A program made the position numbers and the translations under genes. Positions 31,158 to 38,846 of a DNA stretch of 50,190 bases are shown one piece after another. A model generated the notes under the pieces. That model saw only the letters and a list, made by a program, of their open reading frames with translations, did not search any database and had not been told where the DNA came from. Location: the NCBI GenBank assembly GCA_025351825.1, contig JANXVE010000066.1:1-50190 (forward strand), written 5' to 3'. The number at the start of each line of letters is the position of its first letter. Position 1 is the stretch's first letter. The DNA comes from Chamaesiphon sp. 341R_metabat_111. GTDB taxonomy: Bacteria; Cyanobacteriota; Cyanobacteriia; Cyanobacteriales; Chamaesiphonaceae.

Positions 31158-32144
31158 CTAATTAACTGAGTTGAGCCACTCTTCCATTTGAGCTGCTACC
31201 TGCCAACTAAACAACCCGACGATAAAGTCATCTAACTGCTGTTCATTCAACGCAGCGAGTTGACTCGTCACATTCTCCGTTGGCATATATCCCTGAAACT
31301 TCACGCCAATAGCTCTGGTAGCAGATTCTAGCTTGCCTTGAAGTTTACCTTCTAGCTTGCCTCTTTGTTCTGCTTTATCCATTTCAGCGTCGTACCAAGC
31401 ATCGATCTGTGCCATCGTTCTCATAAACTCTTGCTCCTCTAAACTTAAACTGTCTACTGGTAAATCTTTGAGATACACACAATATTTGAGGCTTGCTCGT
31501 ATTGTATCATTTTTCTCTCGTCTGTCTGGCGATAATTGTTCAATCGATTCAAACGCTCGTCTGGCAGATTCCTTGTTTCCCAACATTTTTAACCAGATGG
31601 TTTCAGGGCTATATTCTAACTGTTCGATAACGACTATTCCCATGCGCCAAATTCCGGCTAATTCATACACGCCGTGACCAAATTGGGGATGAGGTGTCGC
31701 TTGGCACAAATGCAGTAATTCAGGATTACAATTGACAGTTAGAATCCAAGTGAATGGATTTTGGTTGTCGATCAGTTCGGTTGATTCGGGTGAGAGCCTT
31801 TGATAGCTAGCTATCTGTTGTTCTCGTTTGAGATTTTCGACTAACTCTAATTGTTTCGGTTCCCAATATAAGTTTTTACGAGTAACAGATTTTTGGATGT
31901 GTTTATCTTGAAGATAGCCACTATAATGCTCGATGATAATCGTCGGGTGAATCTGCATTAGGGCATCAAATAATCCTAGCTGTTCTTGCTGCCAGCCAAA
32001 TTTATCTGAGTGAGCGATAAACATGAAATCGATCTCTAGATCTTCATCGTTTCTGACTTGGATATTCTGAATTGTTTCACCTTTCGACTGATATAAGGAA
32101 CGCAGGTAAAATTTAAAAAATCTGTCGTGTTTGTACTGAGCCAT
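31158..32144 (-). CDS. Rpn/PD-(D/E)XK nuclease-family transposase-like protein
   Basis: A 328-aa protein of a family abundant in cyanobacteria. The N-terminus (YKHDRFFKFYLRSLYQ, then DEDLEIDFMFIA) and IHPTIIIEHYSGYLQD form the degenerate nuclease-like core. EQRGKLEGKLQGKLESATRA and the tail GLFSWQVAAQMEEWLNSV are the usual helical C-terminal elements. Rpn proteins in enterobacteria are recombination-promoting nucleases. Whether this one retains activity is uncertain, as the E-x-K motif is not clean. Confidence 0.75.
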   Translation of the reverse strand: MAQYKHDRFFKFYLRSLYQSKGETIQNIQVRNDEDLEIDFMFIAHSDKFGWQQEQLGLFDALMQIHPTIIIEHYSGYLQDKHIQKSVTRKNLYWEPKQLELVENLKREQQIASYQRLSPESTELIDNQNPFTWILTVNCNPELLHLCQATPHPQFGHGVYELAGIWRMGIVVIEQLEYSPETIWLKMLGNKESARRAFESIEQLSPDRREKNDTIRASLKYCVYLKDLPVDSLSLEEQEFMRTMAQIDAWYDAEMDKAEQRGKLEGKLQGKLESATRAIGVKFQGYMPTENVTSQLAALNEQQLDDFIVGLFSWQVAAQMEEWLNSVN

Positions 32145-32863: not shown

Positions 32864-34960
32864 ATGACTGATAAAATGCGAATCTTGATGTGTGCGCCCG
32901 ATCATTATGATGTGGATTATGTGATTAATCCGTGGATGGAGGGCAATATCCATCGATCGAGTCGAGAGCTGGCTGAGGCTCAATGGGATAAGCTGTATCA
33001 AGTATTGCAGACCTATGCGACGATCGATCTAGTAGAGCCGCAAAAGGGTTCGCCGGATATGGTATTTACCGCAAACGCAGGGCTAATATTAGGAGATACT
33101 GTTGTCCTCAGTCGCTTTTTTCATCCCGAACGGCAGGGTGAGGAGCCTCATTTTCAAGCGTGGTTTGAAAGTCAGGGATACAAGGTACATTTGTTGCCGA
33201 AGAATCTACCGTTTGAGGGTGCGGGTGATGCGCTGATGGATCGAGCTGGCGGTTGGCTCTGGGCGGGTTATGGCTTTCGATCGCAATTAGATTCTCATCC
33301 CTATTTAGCTGAATGGCTGGATGTTGAAGTATTATCATTACGATTGGTCGATCGCAGATTTTATCACTTGGATACTTGCTTTTGTCCGTTAACTGATGGA
33401 TATTTATTATATTATCCAGCGGCGTTTGATACTTATTCCAATCGATCGATCGAACTTCGAGTTCCGGCAGAAAAACGGATTGCGATCGAGGAAGCAGATG
33501 CGGTGAATTTTGCTTGCAATACGGTGAATATCGATCGAGTGGTGGTGATGAATAAAGTCAGTGATGGCTTAAAGCAAACACTGAAAGGGCACGGTTTTAG
33601 CGTAGTTGAAACACCGCTGACGGAATTTCTCAAAGCGGGCGGGGCAGCTAAATGTTTGACGTTAAGAGTAACTGAACCACATCAAGAATCACCCCAATTA
33701 TCTACAGTCCAAAACCGCACGATTAGGCTAGAAGGACATTTGCTCGACTCTGGGTTGGTAAATCGTGCTCTAGATACGATCGTTGCAGGGGGCGGTAGTT
33801 TTCAAGTTGCCAATTTTAAGCTGGGCGAACAGCGGTTGGATACATCGGTGGCGGAGGTGAAAGTTTCTGCACCCGATTCGATCGTCATGGCGGACATTAT
33901 GGGGCAATTAATCGACCTCGGTGCGATCGATACGGCTCCAGACATTTCAGAGGCGAAGCTAGCCCCTGTGACTCAGCCAGGGGTTGCGGCGGATGATTTT
34001 TATGCAACTACTATCTATCCCACCGAAATCTCGATCGCGGGTGAGTGGATTTTGGTGCAGGGACAGCGGATGGATGGGGCAATTGCCGTGACGCAGACTG
34101 CTACAGGTGCGGTGGCTCAGTGTAAGTTGCTGCGAGATTTGCAGGTGGGTGAATCAGTAGTAGTTGGGAGTGCTGGAATTCGGACAAAACGCGCTACTAC
34201 CACTCTGAAAAAGAACACCGAAGAATTTAGCTTTATGGGTGCGGGTGTCTCCAGTGAACGGCGGGTAGAACTAGTCGTGGAGCAGGTTGCCTGGGACTTG
34301 CGCCGGATTCGCGATCGAGGTGGTAAAGTTGCCGTAGTAGCTGGCCCCGTTGTGATCCATACTGGGGGTAGTGAGCACCTGAATCAACTGATTCGGGAGG
34401 GTTACGTTCACGCCTTATTAGGCGGAAATGCCATCGCCGTTCACGATATTGAACAATCATTAATGGGCACCTCGTTGGGCGTAGATATGCAGCTCGGCGT
34501 ATCCGTCCACGGTGGACACCGCCACCACCTCAAAGCAATTAATACAATTCGTCGCTGTGGGAGTATTGCCAAGGCAGTCGAACAGGGCGTACTCCGCAGC
34601 GGGGTGATGTATGAATGCGTCAAACACAATGTCCCCTTCTCCCTCGCCGGATCGATTCGGGATGATGGTCCTCTGCCAGATACCAAGATGGATCTGATCG
34701 AAGCCCAAGCAGAATATGCCCGCCTGATCGAAGGTGCCGACTTGATTTTGATGCTATCGAGTATGCTCCACTCGATCGGGGTCGGAAATATGACTCCCGC
34801 AGGTGTGAAAATGGTCTGTATCGATATTAATCCCGCCGTAGTGACCAAGTTAAGCGATCGCGGTTCGATCGAGTCGATCGGCGTTGTCACCGATGTGGGG
34901 CTATTCCTGAGCCTATTGGTACAACAGCTAAATAAGCTAGCAGGATTAGTCGAAAGTTGA
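32864..34960 (+). CDS. agrE: Arginine dihydrolase ArgZ/AgrE (TIGR00300/LOR-SDH family)
   Basis: A 698-aa enzyme. The N-terminal guanidine-modifying domain (about 1-275) converts arginine to ornithine, CO2 and two ammonia. Its nucleophile position is Cys264 in GGAAKCLTLRV, and the family signatures CAPDHYDVDYVINPWMEGN and GSPDMVFTANAGL are present. The C-terminal part (about 280-690) is the LOR/SDH domain (LEGHLLDSGLVNRALDTIV, GPVVIHTGGSEHLNQLIREG, HSIGVGNMTPAGVKMVCIDI). In Anabaena AgrE it acts as an ornithine cyclodeaminase giving proline; in Synechocystis ArgZ that activity is disputed, so the second activity is not claimed here. It is the arginine-consuming arm of cyanophycin use, upstream of cphB and cphA. 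Confidence 0.93.
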   Translation: MTDKMRILMCAPDHYDVDYVINPWMEGNIHRSSRELAEAQWDKLYQVLQTYATIDLVEPQKGSPDMVFTANAGLILGDTVVLSRFFHPERQGEEPHFQAWFESQGYKVHLLPKNLPFEGAGDALMDRAGGWLWAGYGFRSQLDSHPYLAEWLDVEVLSLRLVDRRFYHLDTCFCPLTDGYLLYYPAAFDTYSNRSIELRVPAEKRIAIEEADAVNFACNTVNIDRVVVMNKVSDGLKQTLKGHGFSVVETPLTEFLKAGGAAKCLTLRVTEPHQESPQLSTVQNRTIRLEGHLLDSGLVNRALDTIVAGGGSFQVANFKLGEQRLDTSVAEVKVSAPDSIVMADIMGQLIDLGAIDTAPDISEAKLAPVTQPGVAADDFYATTIYPTEISIAGEWILVQGQRMDGAIAVTQTATGAVAQCKLLRDLQVGESVVVGSAGIRTKRATTTLKKNTEEFSFMGAGVSSERRVELVVEQVAWDLRRIRDRGGKVAVVAGPVVIHTGGSEHLNQLIREGYVHALLGGNAIAVHDIEQSLMGTSLGVDMQLGVSVHGGHRHHLKAINTIRRCGSIAKAVEQGVLRSGVMYECVKHNVPFSLAGSIRDDGPLPDTKMDLIEAQAEYARLIEGADLILMLSSMLHSIGVGNMTPAGVKMVCIDINPAVVTKLSDRGSIESIGVVTDVGLFLSLLVQQLNKLAGLVES

Positions 34961-35048
34961 TAGTGAACTGAGATTTGGCGTGCGATCGGGCTAATTAAAT
35001 TCGTGCTCAATTAGTGATACGATAGTACTTTCGTACGCTAAATTGGTC

Positions 35049-35888
35049 ATGGCAAAAAACAAGTTGGTAGCACCATTTTTAAAATGGGTAGGAGGTAAAC
35101 GACAAATAATGCCGGAGATCGAGCAGCATTTACCGAAGGGAATCAAGACATATATTGAACCCTTTATTGGCGGAGGTGCTGTACTCTTTCATCTCCAGCC
35201 TAAAAATGCGATTATCAATGACTTCAATTCTGAACTTGTCAATGTTTATCGGGTGATTAAGGACGATCTTGAAGATCTGATTGTAGATTTACAACAGCAC
35301 AAAAATGAATCAGATTACTTCTATGAAATACGTGCTTTGGATAGAACAAAAGCATTTGAAAAATTGACTGATGTAGAGAGAGCCTCAAGAATTATCTACC
35401 TAAACAAGACTTGTTACAACGGATTGTATCGGGTGAATAACTCTGGTGAATTTAATTCACCGTTTGGAAAGTACAAAAATCCAAATATAGTAAATGAACC
35501 AACGCTCAGGGCTGTAAGCTCTTACCTTAATTCTAACGATATTCGGATTGAAAACACTGATTATGAAACAATCTTGAAAGCAGCAGACAAAAATTCTTTT
35601 GTATATTTAGATCCCCCCTATCATCCTGTTTCTGGCAGTGCTAACTTTACTGGATATATCCAAGGTGGATGGAATGAGTCCGATCAAATTAGATTAAAAG
35701 AAGCGTGCGACAGGCTAACTAGACAAGGCATTAAATTTATGCAATCTAATTCTTGCGTGGATTTTATCAAAGATCTCTATTCAGAGTATCAGATTCATAT
35801 CATCAAAGCCAATCGTGCCATAAATTCAGATGGTGAAAAACGAGGTGAAGTAGAAGAAGTCTTAATAGAGAATTATGAGCGAGTCTAA
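35049..35888 (+). CDS. Dam-family DNA adenine-N6 methyltransferase
   Basis: A 279-aa methylase from ATG 35049 (the frame opens at TTG 35043). It has the class alpha order: APFLKWVGGKRQ and YIEPFIGGGAVLFHL (SAM binding) near the start, and the catalytic DPPY at residues 188-191 in VYLDPPYHPVSG, followed by FTGYIQGGW, as in the DpnM/MboI group that modifies GATC. The target is therefore probably GATC, but the recognition loop was not tested. The gene overlaps the nuclease gene by 14 bp. It is AT-rich and almost lacks the CGATCG words that fill its neighbours, indicating recent acquisition. Confidence 0.92.
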   Translation: MAKNKLVAPFLKWVGGKRQIMPEIEQHLPKGIKTYIEPFIGGGAVLFHLQPKNAIINDFNSELVNVYRVIKDDLEDLIVDLQQHKNESDYFYEIRALDRTKAFEKLTDVERASRIIYLNKTCYNGLYRVNNSGEFNSPFGKYKNPNIVNEPTLRAVSSYLNSNDIRIENTDYETILKAADKNSFVYLDPPYHPVSGSANFTGYIQGGWNESDQIRLKEACDRLTRQGIKFMQSNSCVDFIKDLYSEYQIHIIKANRAINSDGEKRGEVEEVLIENYERV

Positions 35889-37170
35889 AAATGATTCAGC
35901 CTGGGGAAAACTATTTGAAAAGTATCAGATATTAGCTCGGCTAGAAAATTCAGATTATTTCTCAATATCATCTAGAGAGATAAAGGAATTTCGAGAAGCT
36001 AGATTGATGACAAAATTTGACCATCGATCGCAGATGCCCAAAATATTCAACGATAACAAACTATCCATCTTACCAGTGTCCAGGGGTGACTATATTATTG
36101 GTAGATTTGAGACGTTTCATAATTTCACTCAAGTTAAAGATAAGATTGAAACGAAGAAGATAAATTTTCCTACTTTCATAGAAAGTTTGAATCCTGAAGA
36201 TATCACAAGTGAGGCAACTGCAATAAATTGTGCATTTATATCGGGCATCATTCAAGACTTTACAGGTGAATCTGAATTACATCCAACAATAAGCGGTCGG
36301 ATGAGTTCACTATCTTTTGACTTCAACATTGATATGGATGCAGAGAAAAAATTGCTTCGCGTAAAAGCTTGTAATTCTCAAATTGAAATTGATGGGGGAT
36401 ATGAAGGTGATGACTCTCTAATTATAATTGAGGCGAAAAATGATATATCTGACGATTTTATTGTGAGGCAGTTATTCTATCCATACAAATTATGGATAGA
36501 AAAAGTAACAAAAAAGGTACGCCCTGTCTTTCTGGCATATACCAACGGTGTTTTTCATCTAAGAGAATATATTTTTTCAGACAGAGATCACTATAATTCG
36601 ATCCAACTTGTCAAGCAAAAAAGATATGAGATTCAAGAAGAAAGCACTATAAATATTGAAGTTATTCAAAAAATCTTAGCCAGCATTGTAATAAAGAAAG
36701 AGCCAGTCGTTGCTTTCCCGCAAGCAGATTTATTTCCACGCATAATTAATTTATGCGAACTTTTAAAACAGAAGTTTATATTGAACAAAGAAGAGATAAC
36801 CCAAGAATATGATTTTAGTTGGAGACAAGCAGGCTATTATTCTGATGCTGCTATCTATCTAGGTCTAATAGAGCGTAAGCAGGAAAACGGAATGTCGGTG
36901 TATCAACTATCGGAAAGAGGGCTGGAGTTATTTGGACTTTCTATTTTTGATAGAAAAATTAAATTAATTGAATCGATCTTAGGCCATACAATTTTTCATA
37001 AGACTTTGGATTTATACTTTAGTAAAGGGAATATCCCAAGCAAAGAAGAAATCATCGAAATGATGCGTAAGGCTGATTTGCATAATGTAAAGTCTTCCGA
37101 GACTTACAAGCGAAGATCTTCAACAGTTAGTGCTTGGATTAAATGGATCGTAAGTCTTGTTGAAGAATAA
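35875..37170 (+). CDS. Type II restriction endonuclease, PD-(D/E)XK-like
   Basis: A 431-aa protein that overlaps the upstream methylase and is thus its likely restriction partner. The catalytic motif is EIDGGYEG (E171, D173) followed by SLIIIEAKND (E186, K188), a PD-(D/E)XK arrangement, then DDFIVRQLFYPYKLW. A C-terminal winged-helix-like region (about 305-425) may contact DNA. I recall related proteins listed as type II restriction enzymes with DUF6996/DUF6997-like domains, without being certain. It is not the classical DpnII sequence, so its cut site is unproven. Base use is AT-rich, like the methylase. Confidence 0.8.
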   Translation: MSESKNDSAWGKLFEKYQILARLENSDYFSISSREIKEFREARLMTKFDHRSQMPKIFNDNKLSILPVSRGDYIIGRFETFHNFTQVKDKIETKKINFPTFIESLNPEDITSEATAINCAFISGIIQDFTGESELHPTISGRMSSLSFDFNIDMDAEKKLLRVKACNSQIEIDGGYEGDDSLIIIEAKNDISDDFIVRQLFYPYKLWIEKVTKKVRPVFLAYTNGVFHLREYIFSDRDHYNSIQLVKQKRYEIQEESTINIEVIQKILASIVIKKEPVVAFPQADLFPRIINLCELLKQKFILNKEEITQEYDFSWRQAGYYSDAAIYLGLIERKQENGMSVYQLSERGLELFGLSIFDRKIKLIESILGHTIFHKTLDLYFSKGNIPSKEEIIEMMRKADLHNVKSSETYKRRSSTVSAWIKWIVSLVEE

Positions 37171-37286
37171 GTGAATTAGACCCCCGTGATTTGTTAAACT
37201 GGACTAGGCTCTGGGTTGACGTTGACTCCCATAGACTTCGATCTTGCTTTCCCACGGTGACATGTATGCTAGACGTAAAGCCGATT

Positions 37287-38117
37287 ATGGCTCAACAATC
37301 GATGGTAACTTCTACCCACTATCCAGTGATGGTGATTGGTGGAGCAGAAGACAAGGTGAATGGCTGTGGTATCTTAGCAGCCTTTTTTGAGAGTGCGGGT
37401 GGGAAAAAAGCAACAATCGGCATCGTCCCCTGCGCCTCCCAAGAACCTAGCGTTGTGGGCGACAGATATTACCAAATCTTCAAAGGGATGGGTGCCAAAC
37501 AAGTGCAGATCCTCGATATTCGACAGCCGAAAGAATGCGATGAATCTCGCTGGCTGAGTACATTAGCCGACTGTACGGGTATTTTCTTTACTGGCGGCGA
37601 TCAGATGCGTCTGTGTGACTTGCTGGGTAGTAGTAAGTTTATGGCAGCGATTCAAGCGCGAATTCAATCTGGCGATCTTGTCTTTGCTGGCACTAGCGCG
37701 GGGGCAGCAATTGTGGGGGAACGGATGATTTCTGGGGGAATTAGTGGCGAATCGCCAAATCGATCGTTAGTAGATTTAACTGACGGCTTGGGTATTTTCC
37801 CAGAACTACTGGTAGATCAACATTTTCACAACCGCAATCGGATGGCAAGATTGATGAGTGCGATCGCGGCTAATCCTGATAAATTAGGGATTGGGATCGA
37901 TGAGGATACCTGTGCGGCTTTTAGCGATGATGGCACTTTTGAAGTCCTCGGGAAGGGCACGATTACGATTATCGATCCAGGTAAATTAAGCCATACAAAT
38001 TATTTAGATTCCAGCCAAACTTCACCCCTGAGTCTGCATAATCTCACCGTACATTTATTGAGTCAAGGCGATCGATATGACTATCAAACTCGCACTGTAA
38101 TTTCAAATCATGGCTAA
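37287..38117 (+). CDS. cphB: Cyanophycinase
   Basis: A serine peptidase of family S51 that cuts multi-L-arginyl-poly-L-aspartate into beta-Asp-Arg dipeptides. From ATG 37287 the protein has 276 aa, close to the usual 270; earlier in-frame starts at 37266 and 37191 add residues with no family match. The nucleophile is S137 in FAGTSAGAAIVGE. FTGGDQMRL and DQHFHNRNRMARL, characteristic of the family, are also seen. The gene follows the restriction-modification pair, from which it is separated by a short spacer, and its last 8 bp overlap the xisH start. The dipeptides produced are substrates of the isoaspartyl peptidase gene at 26961. Confidence 0.95.
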   Translation: MAQQSMVTSTHYPVMVIGGAEDKVNGCGILAAFFESAGGKKATIGIVPCASQEPSVVGDRYYQIFKGMGAKQVQILDIRQPKECDESRWLSTLADCTGIFFTGGDQMRLCDLLGSSKFMAAIQARIQSGDLVFAGTSAGAAIVGERMISGGISGESPNRSLVDLTDGLGIFPELLVDQHFHNRNRMARLMSAIAANPDKLGIGIDEDTCAAFSDDGTFEVLGKGTITIIDPGKLSHTNYLDSSQTSPLSLHNLTVHLLSQGDRYDYQTRTVISNHG

Positions 38118-38523
38118 AGATCTATTTCATCAAGTCGTCAAAGATGCACTGATTAAAGATGGCTGGAATATTACCCACGATCCTTTTCCTGTGGACTATG
38201 GAGATGTTCAGATGCAGATCGATTTGGGTGCCCAAAGGCTGTTGGCGGCAACCAAAGATCGATCGATTATCGCAGTAGAAATCAAAAGTTTCGTCAGACC
38301 TTCGGCCATTTCTGAATTTCATACTGCTGTTGGTCAGTATCTCAACTATCGACGGGCACTACGCGCTCAAGAACCAAATCGAATTTTATATTTAGCAGTC
38401 CCGAAACAAACCTACGATGAATTCTTTCGACTCAGATTCATCGAAGAAGGGATCGAAGAATATCAAATATATTTACTTGTATATGATGTAGAAGAACGGA
38501 GCATAATCAAGTGGAAAAAATAA
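38110..38523 (+). CDS. xisH: XisH family protein
   Basis: A 137-aa protein matching XisH, first known as a factor for excision of the Anabaena fdxN element. The sequence KDLFHQVVKDALIKDGW, DLGAQRLLAATK and IIAVEIKSFVRPSAISEF shows a PD-(D/E)XK-type E-x-K core, and the family is grouped with nuclease folds. Many cyanobacteria have dozens of copies not linked to fdxN elements, often beside xisI as here. The start overlaps the cphB stop by 8 bp and the end overlaps xisI by 13 bp. Confidence 0.93.
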   Translation: MAKDLFHQVVKDALIKDGWNITHDPFPVDYGDVQMQIDLGAQRLLAATKDRSIIAVEIKSFVRPSAISEFHTAVGQYLNYRRALRAQEPNRILYLAVPKQTYDEFFRLRFIEEGIEEYQIYLLVYDVEERSIIKWKK

Positions 38524-38846
38524 GTAACTATCGCCAAATCATTCAAGAGACTCTCACCGCCCATAGCCAAATTCAACCTGCTTATGGTGAGATTGAAATG
38601 GGGCTGTTATTTGACACAGCCCGCGATAGATACCAGGTGCTTCGAGCTGGTTGGTTGCAAAAAAAACGGGTATATGGAGTGTTAATTCATATCGATCTTA
38701 AAGGTGAAACTATCTGGATTCAATATGATGGTACCGAAGTTGGAGTTGCTAATGAATTAGTCGAACAAGGCATTCCCAAGGAGGATATTGTGCTGGCATA
38801 CCATTCTGAGTTTATTCGTCAGTATGATGGTTTTGCGGTGGGATAG
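38511..38846 (+). CDS. xisI: XisI family protein
   Basis: A 111-aa partner of XisH, begun at GTG 38511. The family pattern is clear: NYRQIIQETLTAHSQIQPAY, DTARDRYQVLRAGWLQKKRV and HIDLKGETIWIQYDGTE with LAYHSEFIRQYDGFAV. The two genes are translationally coupled and have been proposed to work as a pair; the molecular role is unsettled. The pair stands between cyanophycinase and cyanophycin synthetase and is probably transcribed with cphB. Confidence 0.93.
   Translation: MEKISNYRQIIQETLTAHSQIQPAYGEIEMGLLFDTARDRYQVLRAGWLQKKRVYGVLIHIDLKGETIWIQYDGTEVGVANELVEQGIPKEDIVLAYHSEFIRQYDGFAVG

Follow-up and report, generated by a model that had tools for sequence, protein, structure and literature searches.

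The window analysed here, a stretch of 50,190 nucleotides from Chamaesiphon sp. 341R_metabat_111 (G000), carries a gene for a DNA adenine methylase and a gene for a predicted restriction endonuclease between agrE and cphB. Both open reading frames were found where a first-pass annotation of this DNA had placed them, and they overlap by 14 bp. In the list of features, relatives of this genome bear G numbers; G008 is Chamaesiphon sp. CAN_BIN19.

32864..34960, + strand: agrE (ArgZ-like), left neighbour of the pair, with 17 CGATCG
34961..35048, + strand: left flank between agrE and the methylase gene, alike in G008 and, in G001, alike up to ~25 bp before the ATG
35049..35888, + strand: DNA adenine methylase gene, 279 aa, N6-adenine methyltransferase of the Dam/DpnM type, GATC predicted
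35875..37170, + strand: nuclease gene, 431 aa, predicted type II restriction endonuclease; DUF6996 and DUF6997 form the nuclease part and DUF7226 the winged-helix C-terminus (Pfam)
36025..36030, + strand: sole CGATCG of the pair, at an identical offset in G008
36379..36438, + strand: predicted catalytic PD-(D/E)XK motif of the nuclease, Q169-x-E171-I-D173 ... E186-A187-K188
37171..37265, + strand: right flank between the nuclease gene and cphB, GTGAATTAGACCCC...TTGTTAAACTGG, native, as it is common to G004, which is without the pair
37266..38117, + strand: cphB (peptidase S51, cyanophycinase), right neighbour, start set by comparison with relatives

Comparing sequences by eye, we saw no counterpart of the left flank (34961..35048) in G002 or G004.

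The pair had been described as poor in CGATCG and AT-rich, and both descriptions held. We counted one CGATCG in its 2,122 bp (35049-37170) versus 17 in agrE, and a mean of 9.2 (sd 3.3) per 2,122-bp segment across the stretch (step 50); the only segments with one or none start at 35001-35601. At the genome-wide rate 7.7 would be expected in the pair, and the Poisson probability of one or fewer is 0.004, a descriptive figure for a region that was picked by eye. The G+C content of the pair, 34.9% (0.349), is the minimum among segments of this length, which average 0.472. Depletion of GATC is milder than that of CGATCG, with 12 in the pair versus 25 in agrE. A search around the pair returned 11 promoter-like sites, versus 8.7 in shuffles, and no terminator. 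An assembly chimera was rejected, since the arrangement is common to two assemblies.

The nuclease and the methylase

The nuclease matches the PADLOC model REase_II PDLC03513 over its full length (5.6e-135). A Pfam scan to E 1 gave DUF6996, DUF6997 and DUF7226 plus two weak unrelated matches, with no match to a named restriction-enzyme family or a known GATC nuclease family, and sequence searches gave no believable solved relative. Residues Q169, E171, D173, E186, A187 and K188 are invariant in 23 cyanobacterial rows and 35 wider rows, both sets hand-picked and with broken copies left out, so that the acidic pair (E171, D173) and the E-x-K element (E186, K188) of a PD-(D/E)XK nuclease are in place. 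The AlphaFold2 model has a pLDDT of 89.4 for the whole protein and 93.6 for residues 1-259. The top fold neighbour of residues 96-255 of this model is 3fov, an unknown protein (Z 7.5), followed at middling scores (Z 5-7.5) by Holliday resolvases, BsaXI, BpuSI, NucS and Cas4-like proteins, many of which we take to be PD-(D/E)XK nucleases; Foldseek returned no match with E under 0.001. The modelled C-terminus matches MarR-like winged-helix proteins up to Z 8.2. Matches to the full-length model are likewise chiefly MarR-like and confined to the C-terminus, in a list that holds no known restriction enzymes, an absence that excludes nothing. The pair resembles DpnII/MboI systems in having a Dam-family methylase beside a nuclease and in its predicted GATC target, but differs from them in its DUF6996/DUF6997/DUF7226 nuclease, to which no named restriction-enzyme Pfam model corresponds, and in having one methylase gene. 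The nuclease is predicted to cut GATC that lacks the methyl mark, and may be remotely akin to DpnII/MboI-type nucleases.

The nucleases of G000 and G008 are 75% identical, and dN/dS between the two genomes is 0.174 for the nuclease versus 0.045 for the methylase, 0.045 for agrE and 0.051 for cphB. The nuclease value may be what restriction genes commonly show, or it may mark the start of decay, and its faster change would also fit relaxed constraint. We considered whether the methylase alone works, with the nuclease decaying and the pair becoming an orphan methylase. The difference in dN/dS fits such a course, as do split nuclease frames elsewhere (L045, L060) and a 99-aa nuclease frame beside a full-length methylase frame in G209 (L208). 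However, the nuclease is full length and free of stops, with intact motif residues, in both Chamaesiphon copies, and its dN/dS is well below 1. We consider decay unlikely.

The methylase matches PF02086 (7.9e-77) and TIGR00571 dam (7.4e-97), and its best solved relative is DpnM (2dpm; E 1.4e-79), as its earlier assignment to the Dam/DpnM group would lead one to expect. In the alignment with DpnM, KW.GGK, NGLYRVN...FN.P.G.Y and DPPY line up; the methylase retains DPPY and a loop reading NGLYRVN...FNSPFGKY. All of the residues by which we take E. coli Dam to contact GATC (K9, N120, L122, R124, P134, Y138) are retained. The TIGR00571 match and the GATC-type loop, aligned with DpnM and E. coli Dam, place the enzyme in the Dam family (class D12, GATC). 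GATC specificity is likely on this evidence, and the predicted product is G(m6A)TC. Some D12 methylases of the Dam family do have other sites, and the loop has FNSPFG in place of the FNVP of DpnM and E. coli Dam; both points would suit a pair whose two enzymes target a different site, such as a longer one containing GAT. Given that the nearest solved relative is a GATC enzyme and that the contact residues are all kept, we consider another target quite improbable and retain GATC as the predicted site.

Origin and age of the pair

We scanned 84,980 species genomes for the nuclease, confirmed 445 relatives and took the best 80. In 75 of these best 80 of 445 loci a methylase gene adjoins the nuclease gene (within 400 bp), as is typical of type II systems, and it always comes first; 67 of the 75 have one identical 8-bp overlap, versus 14 bp in the window. 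Three of the other five loci begin at a contig end, and L245 and L266 show no methylase. The earlier reading of the two genes as a restriction-modification pair is upheld: with a Dam-family methylase gene overlapping a predicted nuclease gene, the pair looks like a type II system. The nuclease also occurs in 23 plasmid records, mostly of Bacillota, and the methylase stands in front of it on the three plasmids examined (Megamonas, Stanieria, Lactiplantibacillus); a phage collection yielded no match. On plasmids of staphylococci and their relatives the same nuclease is labelled 'translation elongation factor', which is likely a misannotation. Systems of the PDLC03513 type with DUF6997 occur in Bacteroidota as well as on plasmids of Bacillota and Stanieria. 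Unlike these, the pair lies on a contig with native chromosomal genes and occupies one locus in two Chamaesiphon species, and its methylase is the only full one of Dam type that was found in the genome. Our literature search found no paper that mentions DUF6997.

The nuclease tree (SH-aLRT support) omits L061, which is short, and four of the 80 loci that the motif filter missed. In it the window and G008 copies are sisters (100). The group around them (95) has 37 rows from Bacteroidota and one from Pseudomonadota, and it sits inside a larger group (98) that has 47 Bacteroidota rows. A separate clade (99) holds 20 other cyanobacterial nucleases. The methylase tree was built from L210-L235, the even-numbered loci of L250-L288 and 36 Dam genes that come from genomes lacking the nuclease. 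Here the pair falls in a group of 31 rows (99) that is made up of Bacteroidota plus single rows of Pseudomonadota and Campylobacterota. Support for the pair with its nearest 19 rows is only 83, the window and G008 copies are mutually nearest (100), and the other cyanobacterial restriction methylases fall outside the group without forming one clade. Descent of the methylase from the Dam genes of the Chamaesiphonaceae themselves was rejected on this tree. Since both trees place the pair among Bacteroidota and apart from the other cyanobacterial copies, we conclude that it is, by its sequence affinities, foreign and of bacteroidete type, in line with the foreign origin first proposed for it. The 80 loci are those nearest to the query, and a broader sample could reveal further donors.

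Throughout the family agrE and cphB lie side by side, and the pair does part them, as had been noted. In six members of the family the distance between their matched ends ranges from 94 to 471 bp: it is 94 bp in G009 and G010, which belong to another genus, 118 bp in G002, 198 bp in G005, 344 bp in G003 and 471 bp in G006. In G004 the gap is taken up by a PsiE gene together with an NMT1_2/ABC transporter operon. In G008, whose nuclease is identical to that in JAJAYU010000403.1, the pair has the same place, order and orientation as in G000, with similar left flanks and with 35 extra bp between the nuclease stop and the right flank. The contigs of G001 end at the site, where the left flank gives way to other sequence, and neither a methylase nor a nuclease gene of the pair was found in this genome (82% complete). 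The gap (34961-37265; L089 2844-9537; L090; L093-L095) is variable in Chamaesiphon; the contig break in G001 comes with a palindromic stretch, and short tandem repeats occur in G003, G005 and G006. Directly after cphB lie xisH and xisI (38110-38846); G004 has an XisI-like ORF and no XisH-like one in its ORF list.

Between G000 and G008, dS is 0.874 for the methylase, 0.874 for the nuclease, 0.695 for agrE and 0.593 for cphB (Nei-Gojobori with Jukes-Cantor), values near saturation of which only the order of size counts. cphA was left out here, its alignment being out of frame. A tree of agrE and cphB from nine genomes groups G000 with G008 and G001 (97), and G008 with G001 (100). The shared locus, together with a dS of the pair no lower than that of the flanking genes, indicates that the pair entered no later than the species split. 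The first-pass annotation had called the pair recently acquired and had proposed comparing agrE-cphB spacing in relatives. That comparison went against recent entry: the site is occupied by the same pair in a second Chamaesiphon species, and its divergence is not below that of its neighbours.

The case for acquisition by this strain alone would be that the pair has the lowest G+C and CGATCG content of the stretch and a foreign position in the trees, with too little time having passed for it to ameliorate. However, the copy in G008 has a single CGATCG too, and a low count is usual in these methylases. CGATCG is present in 2 of 27 nuclease-paired methylase frames of the order, versus 30 of 54 Dam genes in nuclease-free genomes (Fisher 2e-5, kinship ignored); flanks of the nuclease-paired methylases have 1.25 CGATCG per kb, versus 2.02 for the other set, and also a lower G+C. 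The Dam genes of G003, G005, G006, G007, G009 and G010 contain 2-6 CGATCG, that of G004 three, that of G002 none and the methylase of the pair none. Since low CGATCG is habitual for these methylases wherever they are located, it is a mark of origin rather than of recency. CGATCG within a gene may mark long residence in such genomes, but its absence is no proof of recency, and we would caution that a low word count or a low G+C tells of a gene's origin and is no clock. Recent acquisition is very improbable, and entry before the species split is the reading that we retain. Separate insertion of related pairs into a single hot spot in each species, for which the variable gap and its different content in G004 might be cited, is likewise very improbable, as the two copies are mutually nearest in both trees (100), have diverged like their neighbours and share similar left flanks. 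Shared and unshared CGATCG between G000 and G008 number 1 and 0 in the pair, 12 and 7 in agrE, 9 and 9 in cphA, and 2 and 1 in cphB, and one-off precursors of the word number 10 in the pair and 10 in agrE. A row of this comparison labelled 'left ncf', poorly aligned at 55% identity, was set aside. Dating by this turnover was dropped, because a rough reckoning gives about two expected gains in the pair, which is too few.

CGATCG and GATC methylases in the host

The first-pass annotation had described the genome as saturated with CGATCG and as rich in HIP1. Saturation stands, with 14,711 CGATCG in 4.06 Mb versus 1,032 for the word read backwards, but the HIP1 label does not, as the commonest palindromic octamer of the stretch is TCGATCGA (41) rather than classical HIP1, GCGATCGC (13). 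The predominance of TCGATCGA over GCGATCGC agrees with the description of Chamaesiphon minutus (Elhai 2015, PMC4390886). GATC occurs 504 times in the stretch (10 per kb), without depletion. In Calothrix PCC 7103 the same report connects the loss of GATC with a GATC nuclease (Elhai 2015, PMC4390886). The contrast with that pattern counts against the account that we favour below, and 14,711 CGATCG beside a long-resident pair run against the idea, drawn from Calothrix PCC 7103, that such a nuclease drives the words down.

A family search of the genome, which is 99.6% complete, found one full-length D12 methylase gene, that of the pair, and a further marginal match of 50 residues in a 985-aa frame. 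A search of the genome for PF01555 methylases found none; three cytosine-5 methylase genes are present. The assembly is in 202 contigs, and a missed methylase gene is possible. The Dam gene of G004 follows what we take to be cmk, and those of G003, G005, G006 and G007 lie downstream of what we take to be chlD, whose domain type was seen by domain search. Reading of these two loci in the present genome revealed no Dam gene; neither locus is a universal home of Dam. G002 and G004 each carry a GATC-type methylase gene, and G008 carries, besides the pair, a contig-edge piece of another Dam-like gene that is cut before the loop. A resident second GATC methylase, as suggested earlier, was thus not encountered in the present genome, where the count of GATC methylases that had been called for ends with the pair's own. 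Immediately downstream of the Dam gene in G003, G005, G006 and G007 comes an AT-rich ORF of ~147 aa that either overlaps or adjoins it (L079 3456-3899; L076, L078, L081); the ORF of G006 has a PDDEXK_11 domain, so that this 'orphan' Dam may itself have a nuclease partner.

The nuclease is present in 39 of 291 genomes of the order. A second GATC-type Dam gene or piece was found in 8 of the 39 (six intact, the contig-cut one of G008 and a broken one in G258), among D12 matches above ~80 bits. By contrast, 54 of 55 nuclease-free relatives, the exception being G001, have a Dam gene with a GATC-type loop, counting the best D12 match of each and leaving other nuclease partners out of the count; their lack of the nuclease is taken from the scan of the 291, most being among its unlisted genomes. 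The difference is strong (Fisher 2.6e-16, shared ancestry ignored), and by genus a second gene occurs in 7 of 26 nuclease-bearing genera. The GATC-type motif used was wide and did not require the PxG aromatic; a narrower form missed four intact genes and one broken gene. In two of the 39 genomes (G249, G284) methylase and nuclease lie on different contigs. At least three of the 54 Dam genes (L023, L024, L026) fall among restriction-type methylases in the methylase tree, and some 'orphan' Dam genes may be remnants of restriction pairs or have other partners.

The orphan cyanobacterial GATC methylase DmtA occurs in almost all cyanobacteria outside one group, and GATC nucleases in 10 of 97 genomes, with transfer among DmtA genes, according to a published survey (Elhai 2015, PMC4390886). 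The near-exclusion of nuclease and second Dam gene is consistent with that survey and goes further. The methylase of the pair resembles DmtA in its predicted product, G(m6A)TC, and apparently in its slot in the methylase set. It differs from that orphan in that a nuclease gene overlaps it and no CGATCG lies within it, and most of the Dam genes from genomes lacking the nuclease, which stood in for DmtA in this comparison, belong to another clade. As the only full D12 gene found here, and given the near-exclusion across the order, the methylase appears from these gene counts to fill the housekeeping GATC-methylation role.

The GATC-methylation slot

The account that we favour, and think probable as a whole, is that a type II operon of bacteroidete type with predicted GATC specificity entered before the CAN_BIN19 split, and that its methylase now serves in an orphan's role. 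A complete restriction-modification operon would have entered an ancestor within Chamaesiphon and settled in the variable agrE-cphB gap before the lineage separated from that of Chamaesiphon sp. CAN_BIN19. Its methylase, which is translated first, would mark GATC as G(m6A)TC, and the nuclease would cut unmarked GATC of incoming DNA. Having presumably taken over from the usual orphan GATC methylase, the enzyme would now alone guard at least 14,711 GATC sites, those inside CGATCG, and its loss while the nuclease persists should kill the cell, which would help to retain the pair. As the search turned up no other Dam-type gene, the host would have to rely on this methylase, and the methylase dN/dS, equal to that of agrE, fits such dependence. 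Orphan methylases are reported often to leave unmethylated sites, and restriction methylases almost none (PMC4752239).

The first-pass annotation had also suggested that an earlier GATC methylase eased the entry of the pair. This is reasonable, as G002 and G004 carry such a methylase and G008 a piece of one beside the pair; if present at entry, the earlier enzyme would since have been lost in this lineage. It is possible, though we advance it only tentatively, that restriction-modification operons repeatedly seize the GATC-methylation slot of cyanobacteria, with loss of the orphan and with the nuclease locking the replacement in place, here without purging CGATCG. Among the titles and abstracts listed by our literature search, none dealt with the pair or with loss of an orphan methylase beside a GATC restriction system, the nearest report being Elhai 2015.

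Judged from its sequence, the pair is a foreign but not recent restriction-modification pair of a kind already known, and its interest lies in the methylase slot rather than in the insertion. Why cyanobacteria keep a GATC methylase together with palindromes iterated around GATC is debated, and genomes with a restriction methylase in the orphan's stead amount to natural replacement experiments. If iterated words, repair or regulation are normal in such genomes, it would be the mark that matters and not the orphan enzyme.

Two further features of the stretch lie outside the pair. A 328-aa ORF on the minus strand (31158-32144) contains no CGATCG and has, at its C-terminus, a DUF4351 match too weak to pass the curated cut-off (E 0.018). 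Across 1-50190, GGCC is strongly avoided (17 versus 155 expected from trinucleotides), as is CCGG (46 versus 127 expected likewise), which hints at further restriction or methylation pressure.
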